Below are positions 21,242 through 59,656 of a stretch of 64,000 bases of DNA, in pieces (the first letter of the stretch is position 1; every line of letters begins with the position of its first letter). Under the pieces are notes generated by a model. The model saw nothing but the letters and a program-made list of their open reading frames with translations, was not told the origin of the DNA and ran no database searches. The position numbers and the translations under genes were made by a program. Where the stretch lies: positions 1 through 64,000 of the forward strand of contig JALEHL010000057.1 in assembly GCA_022770665.1 (NCBI GenBank). The letters run 5' to 3'. Source of the stretch: Bacillota bacterium. Lineage in GTDB: Bacteria > Bacillota > Clostridia > Peptostreptococcales > Anaerovoracaceae.

Positions 21242-22807
21242 ATGAATGAGAAACGAAGGAATATGACACTGGAAGAAGCCCGTGAGATTATCGACCGGCA
21301 GGACCAGATCATTCTGAAGGCATTCGGAACCCGTATGGAGGCGGCAGGACAGATCGCACGCGTGAAATCACAGAAGGGAACGCCGGTTTATGTGCCCGCA
21401 AGAGAACAGGAGATCCTCAGCCGCATTGCTGAAAAAGCAGCAGAACTTCAGCCGGAGGGATTACCGGAATATGCAGTGGAACTTTACCGGAAGATCATGG
21501 AACTGAGCAGGCAGTATCAGAATACGATCCGCCGGTTCGGTCTGCTGGGAAGGAAACTTTCCCACAGCTTTTCGCCGGAGATTCACCGGATGCTGGGGGA
21601 ATACTGCGAGCCATACCGCTATGAGATCTTTGAAAAAGAACCGGAAGAACTGGAATCTTTCCTGCTGCACGGGGAATGGACCGGACTGAATGTCACCATT
21701 CCCTATAAGCAGGCCGTGATGGCATACTGCGATGAAATTTCGCCGCAGGCGCAGCGGATCGGCGCGGTCAATACATTGGTTCGGCGGGAAGGAAAGATTT
21801 TCGGATATAATACAGATTATACCGGGTTCCGGCAGACCGTGGAGGAGTCCGGTGTACAGGTTCAGGGCGCAAAATGTATCGTGCTGGGGTCCGGCGGTGC
21901 GTCGAAGGCGGTGGTGTGTGTGCTGGAGGATCTCGGCGCATCGGAAGTGATCGTGGTCAGCCGGGACGGAAAGACAGGCTGTGACTACAGTCAGCTGAAG
22001 GAGAAGCATCTGGATGCAAAAATTCTGGTGAATGCCACACCGGTGGGCATGTATCCGGATAACGGCCGCTCTGCGGTATATCCGGGCACCTTTCCGCAGC
22101 TGGAATGGGTATTTGACCTGATCTACAACCCGCTGCGGACGAATCTTCTGTGCCAGGCCCGCAAGTCGGATATTGAAGGCGTGAATGGACTGAAGATGCT
22201 GGTAGCACAGGCCAAGGCCAGTGCGGAGCTGTTCCTTTCGTGTAAAATCGAGGATCGTGCCGTGGCGCAGATCGAAGGAAAGCTTGCGATGGAAAAGGAA
22301 AACATCGTGCTGATCGGGATGCCGGGCTGCGGCAAGAGCACGATCGGACAGGAGCTGGCAGACCGCACCGGACGGGAATTTATCGATATCGATCAGAAAA
22401 TCGTGGAACGGGCAGGAATGGCAATTACCTCTATCTTCGTGGAAGGCGGAGAAAATGCATTTCGAAAGCTGGAAATGGAAGCATGCGCGGAACTGCAGCA
22501 GAAGACAGGCGCGGTGATCGCCTGCGGCGGCGGGGTCATCACCAGAGAGGAGAACTATTATTCTCTCGCAGAAAACGGGCGGTTTGTTTTTCTGAATCGG
22601 GATATTGATGTGCTGCCTACAGACGGCCGGCCGGTGAGTCAGAGCACGCCGCTGGCACATCTTTACGCGCAGCGTCTCCCTCTTTATAGAAACTGGTGCG
22701 ATATGGAAGTACAAAATAACGGGAAGACAATCGGGGAAGTGACTGAAGAGATCCTTCGCCGGTGTGAGACGGGAACCGCAGGCGAACAGCAGGAGGGCAG
22801 CTGCTGA
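21242..22807 (+). CDS. Trifunctional chorismate mutase - shikimate dehydrogenase - shikimate kinase fusion
   Basis: CM_2 N-term (IDRQDQIILKAFGTRMEAAGQIARVKSQ); AroE (GLLGRKLSHSFSPEIH, NVTIPYK, GAVNTLV, GSGGASKAV); AroK (IVLIGMPGCGKSTIGQELADRTGREFIDID, ACGGGVI). Confidence 0.93.
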   Translation: MNEKRRNMTLEEAREIIDRQDQIILKAFGTRMEAAGQIARVKSQKGTPVYVPAREQEILSRIAEKAAELQPEGLPEYAVELYRKIMELSRQYQNTIRRFGLLGRKLSHSFSPEIHRMLGEYCEPYRYEIFEKEPEELESFLLHGEWTGLNVTIPYKQAVMAYCDEISPQAQRIGAVNTLVRREGKIFGYNTDYTGFRQTVEESGVQVQGAKCIVLGSGGASKAVVCVLEDLGASEVIVVSRDGKTGCDYSQLKEKHLDAKILVNATPVGMYPDNGRSAVYPGTFPQLEWVFDLIYNPLRTNLLCQARKSDIEGVNGLKMLVAQAKASAELFLSCKIEDRAVAQIEGKLAMEKENIVLIGMPGCGKSTIGQELADRTGREFIDIDQKIVERAGMAITSIFVEGGENAFRKLEMEACAELQQKTGAVIACGGGVITREENYYSLAENGRFVFLNRDIDVLPTDGRPVSQSTPLAHLYAQRLPLYRNWCDMEVQNNGKTIGEVTEEILRRCETGTAGEQQEGSC

Positions 22808-25012: not shown

Positions 25013-25096
25013 TGTAGGAACCTCCTGTAGATTACTTTTTGATATTATTTTGATATCATAATATTATCACTGTATGCGAAAGAAGACAATGTTTTT

Positions 25097-25125
25097 TTGC
25101 ACATCCGGGAAAGATGTGGTAAAAT
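25097..25125 (+). promoter_or_regulatory. Sigma-A-type promoter of the 25184 gene
   Basis: TTGCAC-N17-TAAAAT. Confidence 0.6.
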
Positions 25126-25183: not shown

Positions 25184-28100
25184 ATGATCAGAAAACAAAG
25201 CGTAAAATTGTATCAGGAAATATCGACTGCCATGATGGAACGGCCTTTCCTGCGGGAAATTGGAATGAACCGGGAGGAGATGGAGCGGCTTCTGGAGGAA
25301 AACAGCTGGAAGACCCTTGCAGAAACGCTGCTGGAGGAGACCGATGAAAACGGAAGATTCCATGCAGTCCGAGTGGCGGAAACAGCGGGAAAGACGCTGG
25401 AGTGTCTCAGCAGCCGGCCGGAAGAAGGCTGGCCGACGTATACCTACGGCTATGTACTGGGACAGCTGTTTCCGGAGAAACGGACCGGCATACCGGATGG
25501 CCCTTATGCGAAAGGAAGACTGTTTTATCTGCATCTGCTGAAAACACTGTTCCGGTTTGAGCGGATGAATCTGCCTTTTGATCCCACGCTTGATATCCGC
25601 TTTCTGCGTCCGTCTGAAGTGGAAGAAGGCGGATATCACAGAGAGTATCTGCGATTTGACCGTATGGCGCGAAACCAGTGCATTTATGAGTTTATGCGGA
25701 TCGGGATCGTAATTACACCATGGAATACCCTGGGGCATATCGCCGGTGTGCATTATGTGGCAATGCATGTAGCCAGACAGCTCGCTGCACTGAAGGTTCC
25801 TGTGGATCTGGGACTGGTTTCCGGTGCAGCGGCAGGACACGATATCGGAAAATACGGCTGCAGGAAAAGTGAAGAGCGCAGGATTCCGTATCTGCATTAC
25901 TATTATACAGATATCTGCTTCAACCGGTTCCAGATGCCTATGATAGGGCATATTGCGGCCAATCATTCTACATGGGATCTGGAACTTGAGAATCTGTCCG
26001 TTGAATCGCTGATCCTGATTTATGCAGATTTCCGTGTCAAGAGCAGCCGCAGCCCGCGCGGCGGCGAGATTGTGCATTTTTATTCTCTGGAAGAATCCTT
26101 CCAGGTGATCCTGGACAAGCTGGATAACGTAGACGCAGCCAAGGAGCATCGCTACCGGAAAGTCTACAATAAGCTGGTAAATTTCGAAAACTATATGAAA
26201 GACCTGGGCGTGGAAGTGACTCTTCCGGAGGTGCCGAGAGCCGTGCCACCCCTTCCGGAGGCGAGAAAGCACCGGGATGTGGCGCTGCTGCGGAATAACG
26301 AGGCAGTGGAGGCACTGAAAAACGCTGCGGTGGATCATAATATCCGGCTGATGAACCGGTTCTACCACGAAGAAGATTTTGCGAATCTGCTGGAGACAGC
26401 CAGAAGTGAAAAACAGTGGAAAAATCTTCGGACGTATGTATCGATTCTGGGAGAGTATTCCACCTATATGACAGAAAGTCAGAAGCTGTTGACGCTGAAA
26501 TTTCTCTATGAGCTGCTGGCCCACAGAGAAAGTGATATCAGAAACCAGGCGGGAGAAATCATGGGACAGATCATCGCCCGCTTTAATGAAGAGTATAAAA
26601 AAGAGCTGCCTGCCGGCGTGTGTCTGCCGAAAAAAAAGATCAACAACCTTTCACTCTGGGAAAAATATCTGCGGGATGTGCTGCAGCCGGATTACAAGCT
26701 GACGCAGCAGCATAAAAAATGGATTGGAAACAGTCTGAAAAATATGGCGGCAGGACTTCTCACCCAGTGCCATGCATCCATGCGTGAAGAATATATCGAC
26801 AGCCTGCAGATCTGGCTGCGGAGCCGGAGCCTGACCCATCAGAACAAGGAATCCCTTCTGCGGGTCACGGAAGCCATTGAGCCTGCCTGGTGCACGGAGA
26901 AACAGAACGCGGAATTCCTCCGGTTTGCGGAAAAGATCATAAAAGAAGAAAGCATCGATCTCCAGATTGCAGCGGTCCGGGTGAAGTCACGGTTCGGCGG
27001 ATATGAAGGCAGTGACGGATATCAGAAAGGACTGAAGCAGATCCTGGGTCTGGATTCAGGGAAAGAGCTTACAGAAGAGGCGCTTTCGGAAATGTTTCTG
27101 GATAATCTGAAAGCCCGGACACCATGGACGATCAAGGTGGCGAACATCCGGCTGATGCTGGAGTATCTGGCTGATAATCCCGGTGAGGGACAGGAACTTC
27201 ACGTTGCGACGCATCTGGGCAATCTGGTCAAAGTCAGTGAAACAGTAACGGTACGGCAGGCTGCCGGCGAGGGACTGGTTTCTATCATCGGGAAAATGCC
27301 GCTGGAGCAGAGAAATGAAATCGCGGTGGAGCTGGGGAAGGGACTGGAGATCGGGGATTACCAGTTTTCCAAATATATTCCGGAATATCTGGGAGTTATC
27401 ATGCTGCACCTTCCGCCCCAGGAGCTGGATGAGCTGATTGCGGATCTGGAAAAGCTGCTGGACAGCGGGAACGGCCAGGTCGCGGCGGCTGTACTTCACA
27501 CATTCGGCGTCATGCTGGAGCACTATCGGATTTACCGTGACAATTTCGGGGATGTGGAGGAAGAAACGGTGACGGATGCCAGGAAATTCAAGCTGGTCAA
27601 TCTGATTCTCCGGGGGTTTGCCAACTATAACAATGTGATCAGCTCTGAGGCCCTCTGGACGCTGGGCACCCATATTTTCGGATCGCAGGCATTGTCGCTG
27701 GAAGAAAAGTATCAGATTTTCAGCCATTGCGGGAAGAAGTTTCTGACGTTATATGACAGCATGAAAGAAGAAGGACTGGACTTCTTTAATAATGCGGCAG
27801 TGCTGAATCACATCTACCGGTTCATCTGCCAGTATGAAGTCGAGGTGGGGCAGTTCGCCATACCGGAACGCCAGAAGGTGGCCTTTTTCCCGGGGACCTT
27901 TGATCCCTTCAGCCTGAGTCACAAAAAAATCGCGGCGGAGATCCGGAACATGGGCTATGAAGTGTATCTCGCGCTGGACGAATTCAGCTGGTCGAAAAAA
28001 ACGCAGCCGAGACTGCAGCGGAGAAAACTGATGTGCATGTCTGTGGCAGATGAAGAGGAAATCTATATCTTTCCGGACGATATCCCGGTAAACATTGCCA

Positions 28101-30007
28101 ACCCGAAGGATCTGAAGCGGCTGAAGGAGATCTTTGCCGGCAGACAGCTCTATTTTGTTGCCGGAAGCGATGTGATCGAGAATGCCTCCTGCTACCGGGC
28201 CGCGCCGCAGCCGGATTCCATTCATACCATAAATCATATTATTTTCCGCCGGACGACAAGTGATACGAGTCATGGTGCAGCAGCACCGTCGGAAGCGTAT
28301 CCGATCAGCGGGGAGATCATCAATCTGCATCTGGAGGAATACTACGAAGATATCAGTTCTACAAGGATCCGTGAAAACATCGATCTCAACCGGGATATCT
28401 CCAACCTCATTGATCCGGTGGCGCAGAATTATATTTTTGAGAACGGACTTTATCTGCGGGAGCCGGCCTACAAGCATGTGATCCAGGCCAGGGATATCCG
28501 CCTGGAAGCCTATATGGACCGGGATGGTGAGACTATCGAAGACATGAAAGAAGAGCTGGTGGACTGGGGATTTGACTACCCGAAAGTAAAGGCGTATCTC
28601 AGCCGGAAGGATGTGCGGACAGTCCGAATCCGGGACGGCATGCGGGATGATAAGGTGGTGGCGCTTGCGGCAGTCAGCCGACTGGACAGCATTGATCTGC
28701 TGCCGGAATTCGGGGATCAGGAAATCGCCGCATATATCCGGAGCCAGGCTGCTGGCGCCATTGCCGTCATCGGCGGGCTTTTTTTCAGCAGGAAGAGCTC
28801 GATTGCGAACCTGGGGCAGACCATACTGACAGAGGTGCTCAGCGAGCTGCTTTCCCGGGACTACACGTATGTTGTCTACCATCCGTGTGATCCTGCGGGA
28901 ATGGGAGGACGTATCATTGAAACACTGGAGAAGCAGGGATTCACAAACATTGCACCGGGCAGCAGCCGGGGCAGCGGCCGTGCCATCTATGCGGTGAATA
29001 TGAAGTCGCCGGTTATCATATTCAAGAACGTGGAAACCATCATCAAGAATCCGCTGAATAAGAATCCGCGGGTGCTGAAAGCTGTGGAGGATGCGCACAA
29101 CAGGCTTCTGAAAGTGCTGACAGGGATTTATCCGGGCGAGCTGATTCTTTCCTTTAATGCAGGGATCATGCATCATAAGATGATCAGCCTGATCACGCGG
29201 CTGAACGGCGTGTCTGCGATACCGGGAAAGAAGAAAGCCTATGGCCCGTATATGGCGGTGCCGTTTGGAAAGGTGCTGGAGGGAGAAGCGGTTCCCAATA
29301 CGGTAACGAAGGCACTTCATACGGAGAAATACTTCTCGCGGGATATTTCTCGGTTCACAGTAGAAGAATCCGGATACTATTCGTCTCTGGACAATCAGAT
29401 AAAAACAATCAAATCCTTTAACCGGCCGGTCATTCTGGTGGATGATCTGCTCCATAAGGGATACCGGATGAAAGAGCTGGACCCGATCCTGAAGGCCAAC
29501 GATGTGGAAGTGGTGCAGACGGTTGTCGGCGTGCAGACGGGACGCGGACGCGATCTGATGACGGTGAAGGAGCGGACCGTCGACAGCGCATACTTCCTGC
29601 CGAATCTGCGGTGCTGGATTGATGAAACTGCGGTATACCCGTATCTGGGCGGAGACAGCATCAAGGATCCGGAACTGCCGGTGGCAAGCCAGGGCCAGAT
29701 TCCATCTCTGAACCTGATCCTTCCATTTGCAGTGCCGACATTTTTCGGTAATGTCTCGCAGAGCAGTCTGTATGATTACTCTATGACCTGCCTGGAAAAC
29801 GCACGGGATATTCTCCGGACGCTGGAGGAAGAATACCAGAAAGAGTTCGAACGGAAACTGACTCTTCGCCGCCTGGGCGAGGTGGTAAAAGCACCGAAGC
29901 GGCCGGATCTGGGAAGGAATGTCTATTACGATGAAAACGCGGCACCGTCTGCCTACGTGGAAAAAGATATGGAAAAACTGATCAGAATGAGGAAAATGTT
30001 CAAATGA
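25184..30007 (+). CDS. 1607-aa multidomain protein: HD domain + helical repeats + NMNAT/cytidylyltransferase-like + acetyltransferase-like + phosphoribosyltransferase-like
   Basis: HD set HYVAMHV/AGHDIGKYG/IAANHS/YADFRVK; FFPGTFDPFSLSHKKIA...EDISSTRIRENI; VVYHPCDPAGMGGRIIETLEKQGF; RPVILVDDLLHKGYRMKELDPIL. Confidence 0.8.
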   Translation: MIRKQSVKLYQEISTAMMERPFLREIGMNREEMERLLEENSWKTLAETLLEETDENGRFHAVRVAETAGKTLECLSSRPEEGWPTYTYGYVLGQLFPEKRTGIPDGPYAKGRLFYLHLLKTLFRFERMNLPFDPTLDIRFLRPSEVEEGGYHREYLRFDRMARNQCIYEFMRIGIVITPWNTLGHIAGVHYVAMHVARQLAALKVPVDLGLVSGAAAGHDIGKYGCRKSEERRIPYLHYYYTDICFNRFQMPMIGHIAANHSTWDLELENLSVESLILIYADFRVKSSRSPRGGEIVHFYSLEESFQVILDKLDNVDAAKEHRYRKVYNKLVNFENYMKDLGVEVTLPEVPRAVPPLPEARKHRDVALLRNNEAVEALKNAAVDHNIRLMNRFYHEEDFANLLETARSEKQWKNLRTYVSILGEYSTYMTESQKLLTLKFLYELLAHRESDIRNQAGEIMGQIIARFNEEYKKELPAGVCLPKKKINNLSLWEKYLRDVLQPDYKLTQQHKKWIGNSLKNMAAGLLTQCHASMREEYIDSLQIWLRSRSLTHQNKESLLRVTEAIEPAWCTEKQNAEFLRFAEKIIKEESIDLQIAAVRVKSRFGGYEGSDGYQKGLKQILGLDSGKELTEEALSEMFLDNLKARTPWTIKVANIRLMLEYLADNPGEGQELHVATHLGNLVKVSETVTVRQAAGEGLVSIIGKMPLEQRNEIAVELGKGLEIGDYQFSKYIPEYLGVIMLHLPPQELDELIADLEKLLDSGNGQVAAAVLHTFGVMLEHYRIYRDNFGDVEEETVTDARKFKLVNLILRGFANYNNVISSEALWTLGTHIFGSQALSLEEKYQIFSHCGKKFLTLYDSMKEEGLDFFNNAAVLNHIYRFICQYEVEVGQFAIPERQKVAFFPGTFDPFSLSHKKIAAEIRNMGYEVYLALDEFSWSKKTQPRLQRRKLMCMSVADEEEIYIFPDDIPVNIANPKDLKRLKEIFAGRQLYFVAGSDVIENASCYRAAPQPDSIHTINHIIFRRTTSDTSHGAAAPSEAYPISGEIINLHLEEYYEDISSTRIRENIDLNRDISNLIDPVAQNYIFENGLYLREPAYKHVIQARDIRLEAYMDRDGETIEDMKEELVDWGFDYPKVKAYLSRKDVRTVRIRDGMRDDKVVALAAVSRLDSIDLLPEFGDQEIAAYIRSQAAGAIAVIGGLFFSRKSSIANLGQTILTEVLSELLSRDYTYVVYHPCDPAGMGGRIIETLEKQGFTNIAPGSSRGSGRAIYAVNMKSPVIIFKNVETIIKNPLNKNPRVLKAVEDAHNRLLKVLTGIYPGELILSFNAGIMHHKMISLITRLNGVSAIPGKKKAYGPYMAVPFGKVLEGEAVPNTVTKALHTEKYFSRDISRFTVEESGYYSSLDNQIKTIKSFNRPVILVDDLLHKGYRMKELDPILKANDVEVVQTVVGVQTGRGRDLMTVKERTVDSAYFLPNLRCWIDETAVYPYLGGDSIKDPELPVASQGQIPSLNLILPFAVPTFFGNVSQSSLYDYSMTCLENARDILRTLEEEYQKEFERKLTLRRLGEVVKAPKRPDLGRNVYYDENAAPSAYVEKDMEKLIRMRKMFK

Positions 30008-31008
30008 GAGATAATTCGCAAAATCTATCGTCCCGATGCAGCGGCCGGCGCCTCGGGGAACTGGCGCCGGGAGGAGAAAGACTTTCTCTGGCGGCACCGC
30101 TTCCGGCCGGTGGCGTGAGGGTGCATATTCTTGCTCTGGGTGATGTCGGAGCATCGCTGCTTCTTGGTCTCAAAGTGCTGGGAGCCGGCACCATCGGCAC
30201 CATCGGGATCTTTGATGTCAGAGAACCGGTCTGCCGGCGGTATGAGATGGAAATGAACCAGATCGGCTGGGCGTTTGAAGAACAGGAGAAAAATGTTCTG
30301 CCGGATGTGGAGATCGTGGCGGAAGACAGACTGTTCGACTGCGATCTTTTCCTGTTCTGCGCCAGCAAGGCGGTTCCTGCACTTGGCACGGCGGGCGATG
30401 TCCGCATGATGCAGTTTGATGCAAACCGCACACTCGTGGAACACTATGCGCGGATGGCGGCGGACAGAAGATTCCGCGGCATATTCGGGGTCGTGTCGGA
30501 TCCGGTCGATCCTCTCTGCAAAGCTGCGCTGCTGGCGTCCGGTCTGCAGCCCGGCCAGATCCGGGGATTCGGTCTGGGGGTGATGAACCGGCGTGCAGTT
30601 TATTATGCCCGACAGGATGCGCGATTCGCATCCTACCCGGCAGAGGGACGGGCCTTCGGACCGCACGGGCAGGATCTGGTTATTGCAGATAGTATTGTGC
30701 ATTATAACGATGCACGGTCCCGTCAGCTGACGGAGCTGACCGTTTCGGCCAATCTGGAGGTGAGGAAGCTGGGATTCAAACCGTATCTGGCACCGGCCCT
30801 TTCCTCCGGAGCCATGTCGGTGATCCGCATGCTTCAGGGAAAATGGCATTACAGTTCGATCTATTTCGGAAAGAAGGAAAAAGGCGCATTTCTGGGCACA
30901 GCGAACCGGGTCCGCGGAGAAAGACTGGAATATGAAGACCTGCTTCTGCCGGAGGAACTTTACGTGCGGATTGAAACCGCGTATCAGAATCTGTGCCGGA
31001 TTCTGTAG
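30004..31008 (+). CDS. Rossmann-fold dehydrogenase-like protein (lactate/malate dehydrogenase-related)
   Basis: VHILALGDVGASLLLGLKVLGAGTIGTIGIFDVRE, FGVVSDPVDPLCKAAL; start overlaps preceding stop (ATGA). Confidence 0.6.
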   Translation: MRDNSQNLSSRCSGRRLGELAPGGERLSLAAPLPAGGVRVHILALGDVGASLLLGLKVLGAGTIGTIGIFDVREPVCRRYEMEMNQIGWAFEEQEKNVLPDVEIVAEDRLFDCDLFLFCASKAVPALGTAGDVRMMQFDANRTLVEHYARMAADRRFRGIFGVVSDPVDPLCKAALLASGLQPGQIRGFGLGVMNRRAVYYARQDARFASYPAEGRAFGPHGQDLVIADSIVHYNDARSRQLTELTVSANLEVRKLGFKPYLAPALSSGAMSVIRMLQGKWHYSSIYFGKKEKGAFLGTANRVRGERLEYEDLLLPEELYVRIETAYQNLCRIL

Positions 31009-31015
31009 TGAGGAG

Positions 31016-32113
31016 ATGAAACTTGTGAATTTCTATGTGATCTGCCTGAAAGATCCCCATGGGAGCGGCCGGATCGGGAAGATACTGAAGGAGGCGCTGG
31101 ATTCTGCCGGAAAACAGACAGAAGTTTGCTGGCTGAACAGCGCTGACGCATTCTGTGCGGCGGCGGAGATGGAAAAACTGAAGCAGAGCCGGATCCTTTT
31201 CGCTGCGGAACTGCCGGAAAGCGGTATTAATCTGGAATTGATGGCGCTGCTGCAGTATCTTCATACTCATCGGAACGCGCTGGAGGGAAGTGTCGGCGGG
31301 ATTCTGATCGACGGAGAAAATGATCTTTACACGAAGGATGCCGGGCGGCGTGTTGCGTTTGCAGCAAACCGCTCCGGGTGCACGTTCCCGGGGAAGTCAC
31401 TGGTGGAGGGAACCGGAAGTCTGAAAAATTTTGATGTGCAGGCACGAACGATGCATCTGACAAACCGTGCGGCTTATAGGAAAAGCGCCGGGAACCTGGT
31501 GAAAAAAGTGCTTTCTTTCGAGACGAAGATGCCTCAGCGGCCGGCTGTGCTGGCAGTGCATGCCAGCAGCCGGAAAACATCCAACAGCCTTCTTTTATGG
31601 TCCAGGGTGGCCGGATATCTGGAAGGTCTGGCGGATATCGAGGAAATCTCCATCCGGAACGGGCAGGTCTGGGACTGCCGCGGCTGCAGATATGAGACAT
31701 GCCTTCATTTCGGAGAAAATTCGAGTTGCTTTTATGGCGGAGTTATGGTAGAAAAGGTATATCCGGCGATTATCCGGAGTGATGTTCTGGTACTGATTTG
31801 CCCGAACTATAACGATGCGGTCAGCGCAAATATCATGGCATTCATCAATCGGCTGACAGCGGTGTTCCGCACCAATGATTTCAGCCGGAAAAGGGTCTAT
31901 GCGCTGGTGGTGTCCGGATACAGCGGCGGAGATATCGTCGCGCAGCAGATTATCGGTGCGATCAATATGAATAAAAATTTCATACTGCCTGCAGGATTCG
32001 CACTGATGGCTACAGCCAATGATCCAGGCAGCATCCTGGAGATAGAAGAGATTGACGAACAGGCAGAAGCCTTCGCCGAAAATATTTTGGGAAGAAATGG
32101 AAGAGGAAGATAA
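31016..32113 (+). CDS. NAD(P)H-dependent FMN reductase/flavodoxin-like protein
   Basis: AVLAVHASSRKTSNSLLLWSRV, CRGCRYETCLHFGENSSCFYGG, IRSDVLVLICPNYNDAVSANIMAFINRLTAVF; ATG 31016 after RBS. Confidence 0.65.
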   Translation: MKLVNFYVICLKDPHGSGRIGKILKEALDSAGKQTEVCWLNSADAFCAAAEMEKLKQSRILFAAELPESGINLELMALLQYLHTHRNALEGSVGGILIDGENDLYTKDAGRRVAFAANRSGCTFPGKSLVEGTGSLKNFDVQARTMHLTNRAAYRKSAGNLVKKVLSFETKMPQRPAVLAVHASSRKTSNSLLLWSRVAGYLEGLADIEEISIRNGQVWDCRGCRYETCLHFGENSSCFYGGVMVEKVYPAIIRSDVLVLICPNYNDAVSANIMAFINRLTAVFRTNDFSRKRVYALVVSGYSGGDIVAQQIIGAINMNKNFILPAGFALMATANDPGSILEIEEIDEQAEAFAENILGRNGRGR

Positions 32114-32114
32114 A

Positions 32115-32651
32115 ATGAAAAAATTGCTTATTGTAGTGGATTATCAGAACGATTTTGTAAACGGCTCTCTGGGATTTCCGCGGGCTGCGGAGCTGGAGAA
32201 GGGAATTGCGGAGAAGATCCGAGAATATCATGCATTGGGTCCGGACGGCCAGGTGATTTTTACGATGGACACCCATGACCGCCATTACATGGACAGCCAG
32301 GAGGGAAAGAATCTGCCGGTGCTTCACTGCCTGGAGGGTGAAGATGGATGGCAGCTGTATGGTGCTGTGGCAGATGCAAAAGCAGAGGAGGATCTTGTTT
32401 TCAGCAAACCGACGTTCGGCTCTCTGGAACTGGCAGACTATCTCCGGAATCATGCGGATGCATATGAGAGCGTGGAATTTGCAGGCGTCGTTACGAATAT
32501 CTGCGTCATTTCCAATGTGATCCTGGCCAAGGCGGCGATGCCGGAAGTTCCGCAGATCGTGGATGCGTCTCTGGTGGCAGGTAACGATGAGAAGCTGCAT
32601 GAAGATGCGCTGCGTGTGATGGAAGGCATCCATGTGCGCGTAAAGCGGTAG
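32115..32651 (+). CDS. Isochorismatase/nicotinamidase-family cysteine hydrolase
   Basis: LLIVVDYQNDFVNGSLGFPRA, FTMDTHD, FSKPTFGS, EFAGVVTNICVISN. Confidence 0.87.
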   Translation: MKKLLIVVDYQNDFVNGSLGFPRAAELEKGIAEKIREYHALGPDGQVIFTMDTHDRHYMDSQEGKNLPVLHCLEGEDGWQLYGAVADAKAEEDLVFSKPTFGSLELADYLRNHADAYESVEFAGVVTNICVISNVILAKAAMPEVPQIVDASLVAGNDEKLHEDALRVMEGIHVRVKR

Positions 32652-59479: not shown

Positions 59480-59656
59480 GTGGTAGCTGCTCAGGTCTGT
59501 GGTTGAAAGTCCAGGCCAGGTACGGGCGAAAGGATCCACGTAAGCCGTAAGCGGGAGTCTTGCGGTGATCATGGCGTACCTTAGAAGTAAGTCCTCCGGA
59601 AATCGGATCAAGGCGGGTGTGGGGTCAAAGACCAGGTCAGCTGAGCAGTCTTTTTT
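59480..59656 (+). ncRNA. raiA-motif-type structured RNA upstream of hpf
   Basis: GC-rich non-coding ~175 nt, closing stem CTGCTCAG (59487-59494)/CTGAGCAG (59641-59648) followed by TCTTTTTT, between comF and hpf/raiA: the genomic position and size expected for raiA-motif RNA. Confidence 0.72.

Follow-up and report, generated by a model that had tools for sequence, protein, structure and literature searches.

Within the window, which is the whole stretch of 64,000 nucleotides that was analysed, a gene for a large multidomain protein (gene 1) heads a three-gene operon (Table 1). The first-pass annotation had reported gene 1 as a single uninterrupted ORF and had overlooked genes 2 and 3, which lie directly downstream. 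The ORF is confirmed, with an ATG start and zero internal stops. Profiles and AlphaFold models also recover the five modules that had been read in one chain, namely an HD domain, a HEAT-like solenoid, a NadD-like nucleotidyltransferase (NTase), a GNAT fold and a type I phosphoribosyltransferase (PRTase) fold.

Table 1. Features of the three-gene operon and of the modules of gene 1; positions are those of the window.
Feature	Position	Strand	Basis
Promoter-like site shortly ahead of gene 1 (TTGCAC/TAAAAT, the second hexamer preceded by TG)	25096..25125	+	consensus scan only
Gene 1, multidomain protein, 1607 aa	25184..30007	+	ORF and 63 non-redundant full-length members
Residues 1-160, variable N-terminal helical region	25184..25663	+	model; lowest conservation
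Residues 161-345, HD domain, six invariant ligand candidates	25664..26218	+	profiles, alignment; most conserved module
Residues 346-890, HEAT-like alpha-solenoid	26219..27853	+	model of residues 1-893; Foldseek
Residues 893-1095, NadD-like nucleotidyltransferase (PGTFDPFSLSH, DEFSWSK, GSD...Y1004, SSTxIR)	27860..28468	+	profiles, motifs
Residues 1105-1275, GNAT fold without CoA-binding signature loop	28496..29008	+	model, Foldseek, motif count
Residues 1276-1500, type I PRTase fold, altered PRPP loop (DDLLHKGYR)	29009..29683	+	model, Foldseek, motif count
Residues 1501-1607, conserved C-terminal helical tail	29684..30004	+	model
Gene 2, lactate/malate-dehydrogenase-like NAD-binding protein	30004..31008	+	start overlaps gene 1 stop by 4 bp; conserved partner
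Gene 3, flavodoxin-like FMN_red protein, conserved CX2CX4CX8C	31016..32113	+	conserved partner

Relatives of gene 1 were sampled from 151 genomes of the same family, from phylum genomes (a draw of a few hundred, 348 in the HD and PRTase profile search) and from the GTDB contig collection, with near-duplicates removed. They share about 36% to 88% identity, and the full-length family comprises 63 non-redundant members, the window included, of 1545-1674 aa. All 63 align end to end across the whole chain, which marks gene 1 as a real gene, and the modules are always fused. Strong matches were obtained in 64 of the 151 same-family genomes. Outside the family gene 1 is rare: of the 348 phylum genomes only its own and five others give strong matches to the HD and PRTase profiles, every such match sits inside an ORF of 1573-1667 aa, and neither module stands alone above noise. 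The proposal of a novel fusion would have been undermined by homologues that are routinely separate genes, but all strong matches in these genomes are full-length fusions. A homologue is also present in Acetoanaerobium noterae.

Phage records gave no match to gene 1, and the sole "plasmid" match is a 2.6-Mb Acetoanaerobium record (L114, NZ_CP154629.1) that bears the operon and looks like a chromosome (6S RNA nearby); a mobile or phage origin was therefore rejected. An anti-phage defence system was likewise dismissed, since PADLOC models match none of the three operon proteins. A contig labelled Akkermansia (L063) has an 81%-identical piece of the gene 1 protein and is probably misbinned. The apparent natural split of gene 1 in genome G115 is a run of N (L171, 8480-8984), that is, an assembly gap or masking. 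No description of the gene 1 architecture was found in open-licence papers, and the earlier statement that it has no obvious characterised counterpart holds for the libraries and the open-licence literature searched.

Single-domain E-values are modest in single members of the gene 1 family. The whole-protein scan returned one clear family, CTP_transf_like (residues 901-1065, E 3e-10), with HD and PRTase sub-threshold. AlphaFold was given an alignment of 53 members, from which the Acetoanaerobium row was excluded, and yielded confident models of residues 1-893 (pLDDT 89.1, pTM 0.86) and of residues 1095-1607 (model ma99665cec8f5; pLDDT 90.1, pTM 0.89). The former is entirely helical apart from a short hairpin past the HD core, and the helical-repeat-like middle noticed earlier takes shape in it as a HEAT-like solenoid, which Foldseek matches to the HEAT scaffolds CAND1, the PP2A A-subunit and karyopherins. 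Residues 1-893 also gave weak PDB profile matches, to a glycosidase and a designed repeat protein, which were disregarded. The mean frequency of the top residue is highest in the HD (0.76) and NTase (0.71) modules, followed by PRTase (0.63), tail (0.60), solenoid (0.53), GNAT (0.46) and N-terminus (0.39), which makes GNAT the least conserved of the enzyme-type folds.

Assignment of the HD domain rests on profiles and on the invariant ligand set; the Foldseek comparison is crowded by solenoid matches. Pfam HD (PF01966) is matched by 36 of 39 members (best 2.7e-7), although the window protein as a whole stays below the cut-off (E 0.067), and six candidate ligands of a di-metal site (H185, H219, D220, H238, H261 and D282) are identical in 63/63, which places the module in the HD superfamily. 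The HD residue set of the first-pass annotation thus stands as a domain but not in its first residue: the invariant His is H185 (GHIAGVHY), not H190 of HYVAMHV, which is replaced in two members (L100 and L102). The nearest named families are DVU_1551 (39/39 members) and TIGR00295 (32/39). With the Ap4A hydrolase YqeK, whose diiron site is bound by the ligand set H...HD...H...H...D (PMC8177086), the module shares this ligand order and carries HDIGK. It nevertheless lacks a significant match to the YqeK profile (TIGR00488; hhalign probability 3.7%), which rises over its cut-off in separate YqeK genes only (19 genomes). A weak match to PmGH (4mcw) recalls the HD-GYP phosphodiesterases, but the HH pair and the GYP triad of that group are absent from gene 1, in which H261 is followed not by a second His but by an invariant S262 and then TWD.

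The NMNAT/cytidylyltransferase signature noted earlier is confirmed by Pfam CTP_transf_like (PF01467) at 40.9 bits against a cut-off of 21, which places the domain in the NadD/NMNAT superfamily. In the PDB its family profile matches structures of NadD (the best, 7.4e-8), NMNAT and CoaD. The best NCBIfam match of gene 1 is likewise NadD (TIGR00482), yet at 45.5 bits it remains far below the cut-off of 112.45. Likeness to NadD lies in the fold, in FDP...H, in SSTxIR and in an aromatic residue at the base-stacking position, where the invariant Y1004 is aligned to the Trp of NadD. PGxFDPFx[LK]xH is kept in 62/63 members and SSxxIR in 63/63, and the GSD motif is also kept, so that fold and catalysis look intact as judged from the motifs. 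In contrast to NadD, HxGH appears as (S/T)LxH, which is nearer to the T/HxGH motif of CoaD, and the PPHK substrate loop is swapped for DEFSWSK. Because this loop is unlike that of NadD, the domain may use an acceptor other than a nicotinate nucleotide.

For the acetyltransferase-like stretch and the type I PRTase-like P-loop of the first-pass annotation, the folds are supported and the signature loops are not. The likeness to GNAT acetyltransferases is one of fold (best Foldseek match human Naa60, 5icv; E 3.7e-6, target TM 0.66), whereas the Q/RxxGxG/A loop for acetyl-CoA is present in one member and absent in 62/63. The PRTase module is closest to the xanthine PRTase of B. subtilis (Xpt, 1y0b/6w1i; E 2.3e-5). 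The stretch RPVILVDDLLHKGYR occupies its PRPP-loop site, yet differs from the canonical DDxxxTG, which was found in 0/63. Apart from the fold, the likeness to type I phosphoribosyltransferases (Xpt, UPRT) consists of an acidic pair at the PRPP-loop position (D, then D, E or N, in 63/63); HKGYR itself is conserved, but the TG of the motif is missing throughout the family. Since the CoA and PRPP loops are absent, the two parts do not appear to be ordinary working enzymes and look like ligand-binding modules instead. Conserved without their defining loops, these folds would be a clear case of enzyme folds put to another use. We infer from the sequence that gene 1 probably combines two working catalytic centres (HD and NTase) with two modules that bind something else.

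Both partner proteins have a redox character. Gene 2 is a remote relative of the L-lactate/malate dehydrogenases: it resembles them in the NAD-binding fold and in GPHG (His kept), but has SDPVD for NPVD. It matches Ldh_1_N (E 5.8e-4, below the cut-off) and LDH in the PDB (E 1.9e-4), it scores 23.5 bits against an L-lactate dehydrogenase cut-off of 339, and its family conserves a GDVG nucleotide loop together with SDPVD and GPHG. Gene 3 belongs to the FMN_red superfamily (Pfam E 1.1e-16, 61.3 bits vs cut-off 24) and has four conserved Cys in the arrangement CX2CX4CX8C, which resembles the motif of iron-sulphur flavoproteins. It is a flavoprotein, probably Fe-S. It differs from NADPH-dependent FMN reductases and iron-sulphur flavoproteins by about 170 extra N-terminal residues and has no NCBIfam match.

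The association of the three genes is conserved. Gene 2 is next on the same strand in 61/63 loci, and gene 3 follows wherever the sequence extends far enough; both exceptions (L107 and L076) belong to one genus (L076/L172 and L107, genomes G046 and G089) that has gene 1 and lacks genes 2 and 3. Among the 151 family genomes, both partners occur in 60 of the 64 gene 1 carriers, while the 87 non-carriers yield two occurrences of gene 2 and a single one of gene 3 (Fisher p ~1e-34, a value overstated because kin genomes are not independent). Genome G063, in which genes 1 and 3 are absent, has a 39%-identical gene 2 homologue (L168, 8053-10026, minus strand) in the usual synteny (gdh, mgtE, nnrD-like), a probable relic. 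The neighbours in a subgroup of loci are a divergent glutamate dehydrogenase-like gene upstream and mgtE- and nnrD-like genes downstream. In the window an isochorismatase-family hydrolase (32052-32651, plus strand) comes right after the operon; it is not a conserved neighbour in other loci.

The promoter-like site of Table 1 comes from a consensus scan that is near chance in this region (9 found vs 6.8 expected); a similar TGTGGTAAAAT lies upstream of L050 and L113. No riboswitch, that for NAD included, was detected upstream of gene 1 in eight loci and the window. A Rex-type operator was rejected on similar grounds of chance, with 5 matches vs 3.8 in shuffles.

The role of gene 1 is additional to housekeeping NAD synthesis because ordinary NadD and YqeK coexist with it. 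NadD is over its cut-off in 24/24 genomes tested, including that of the window as a separate protein, and YqeK is present in 19/19, usually adjoining NadD. Replacement of either enzyme by gene 1 was thus rejected. Of worked precedents, the nearest is a mycoplasma chain in which NadD is fused to YqeK (NCBIfam NF005519); its HD domain removes wrong NaAD analogues by hydrolysis and is able to act on 8-oxo-GTP as well (PMC9426524). Like gene 1, this chain couples a transferase of the NMNAT type to an HD hydrolase, but NF005519, a model of 361 positions against 1607 aa, matches gene 1 on the NadD part only (E 1.7e-9), and the HD domain of gene 1 lies at the opposite end and is not YqeK by profile. 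Compared with this fusion, gene 1 adds the solenoid, the GNAT and PRTase folds and two partner genes, and does so beside ordinary NadD and YqeK.

Taken together, the fused modules and the conserved redox partners suggest that one group of gut and anaerobic bacteria has a nucleotide-handling system not described before. The nucleotide-related chemistry proposed in the first-pass annotation is upheld, and a nucleotide-cofactor or nucleotide-signal processing machine is still the most reasonable class, its substrate being putative. As a tentative reading, for which we would claim somewhat less than an even chance, we posit that the gene 1 product is bifunctional: it would both synthesise an NAD-type dinucleotide and hydrolyse or edit it, governed by C-terminal sensing modules and working with the redox pair. 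An NTP would serve the NadD-like domain as nucleotidyl donor and a small phosphorylated compound as acceptor, the likeliest being a mononucleotide of the nicotinate or nicotinamide type or an analogue of one. The di-metal HD domain would then cleave a phosphate bond of the dinucleotide so formed, or of a faulty version of it. The HEAT solenoid may keep both active sites in one particle and offer a surface for partners, should the three proteins be in contact. A ligand bound by the GNAT-like and PRTase-like modules would most likely decide which of the two activities is on, and the NAD-binding protein and the flavoprotein may use, reduce or repair a redox form of the same nucleotide. This would be the logic of the mycoplasma chain on a larger scale.

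In favour of this bifunctional reading are the HD ligands (63/63), which match the diiron set of YqeK, the NTase motifs (62-63/63) with PDB profile matches to NadD/NMNAT/CoaD and the invariant Y1004, the rank of HD and NTase as the most conserved modules, the mycoplasma precedent of an HD domain editing NadD products, the co-occurrence of the partners, and the presence of ordinary NadD and YqeK beside gene 1. Against it speak an HD domain that is not recognisably YqeK and whose fold comparison is swamped, the DEFSWSK loop that is unlike PPHK, the lack of an NAD riboswitch or Rex-type site upstream, and the genus without genes 2 and 3. A bolder version, which we hold to be possible but doubtful, would have this giant enzyme make and destroy a novel dinucleotide, either a signal or a redox cofactor, with the GNAT and PRTase folds repurposed as sensors and the LDH-like/flavoprotein pair reading or using the dinucleotide.

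Other explanations draw on the same evidence in different ways. The order of an N-terminal hydrolase, a synthetase and C-terminal sensor-like modules is that of RelA/SpoT, and both catalytic modules are intact while both C-terminal modules are without signature loops. This would suit a signal-nucleotide device in which the NTase makes and the HD domain destroys an unusual alarmone-like dinucleotide, the C-terminal sensors pick the direction and genes 2 and 3 are effectors. We regard this as unlikely, as the resemblance is one of layout only, the partners are redox proteins, and no effector domain or regulated operon was found. Less likely still is a production line for a modified redox cofactor, with PRTase, NTase and HD as successive steps and genes 2 and 3 using or finishing the product: the folds suit a path that starts from a base and passes through a nucleotide to a dinucleotide, both partners have a redox character and the PRTase motif retains an acidic pair in 63/63 (D, then D, E or N), but all 63 members lack the canonical PRPP motif and 62 of them the CoA loop.

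Quality control of NAD(P)(H) ranks lower again. Here the complex would clear or repair damaged or misbuilt pyridine dinucleotides, with HD as a diphosphatase and the flavoprotein/LDH-like pair handling abnormal reduced forms, as suggested by NadD-YqeK proofreading (PMC9426524) and by an nnrD-like gene (NAD(P)HX dehydratase, as read from sequence) a few genes away in 11 loci. This adjacency is, however, seen in one subgroup only and may reflect shared synteny, and a repair hydrolase alone would need no intact NTase. The 545-residue solenoid, together with the loss of signature loops in two of the four enzyme folds, could also be taken to mean that gene 1 is mostly a scaffold or regulator, its enzyme folds binding ligands only while it assembles the two redox enzymes; as conservation along the chain is highest at the catalytic residues of HD and NTase, we consider this improbable.

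The operon offers a small, conserved and testable three-protein set through which to approach an unassigned branch of the nucleotide or redox metabolism of anaerobic Bacillota. A dinucleotide other than NAD, should gene 1 make one, would count as a new cofactor or signal; should gene 1 edit NAD-type products, NadD-YqeK proofreading would extend to a far larger, regulated machine.

Two further features of the window lie apart from the operon. A protein of 521 aa (21242-22807, plus strand) has chorismate mutase II, shikimate dehydrogenase and shikimate kinase domains fused, and a raiA structured RNA is located at 59486-59649 (plus strand; 138.8 bits vs gathering score 101.3).
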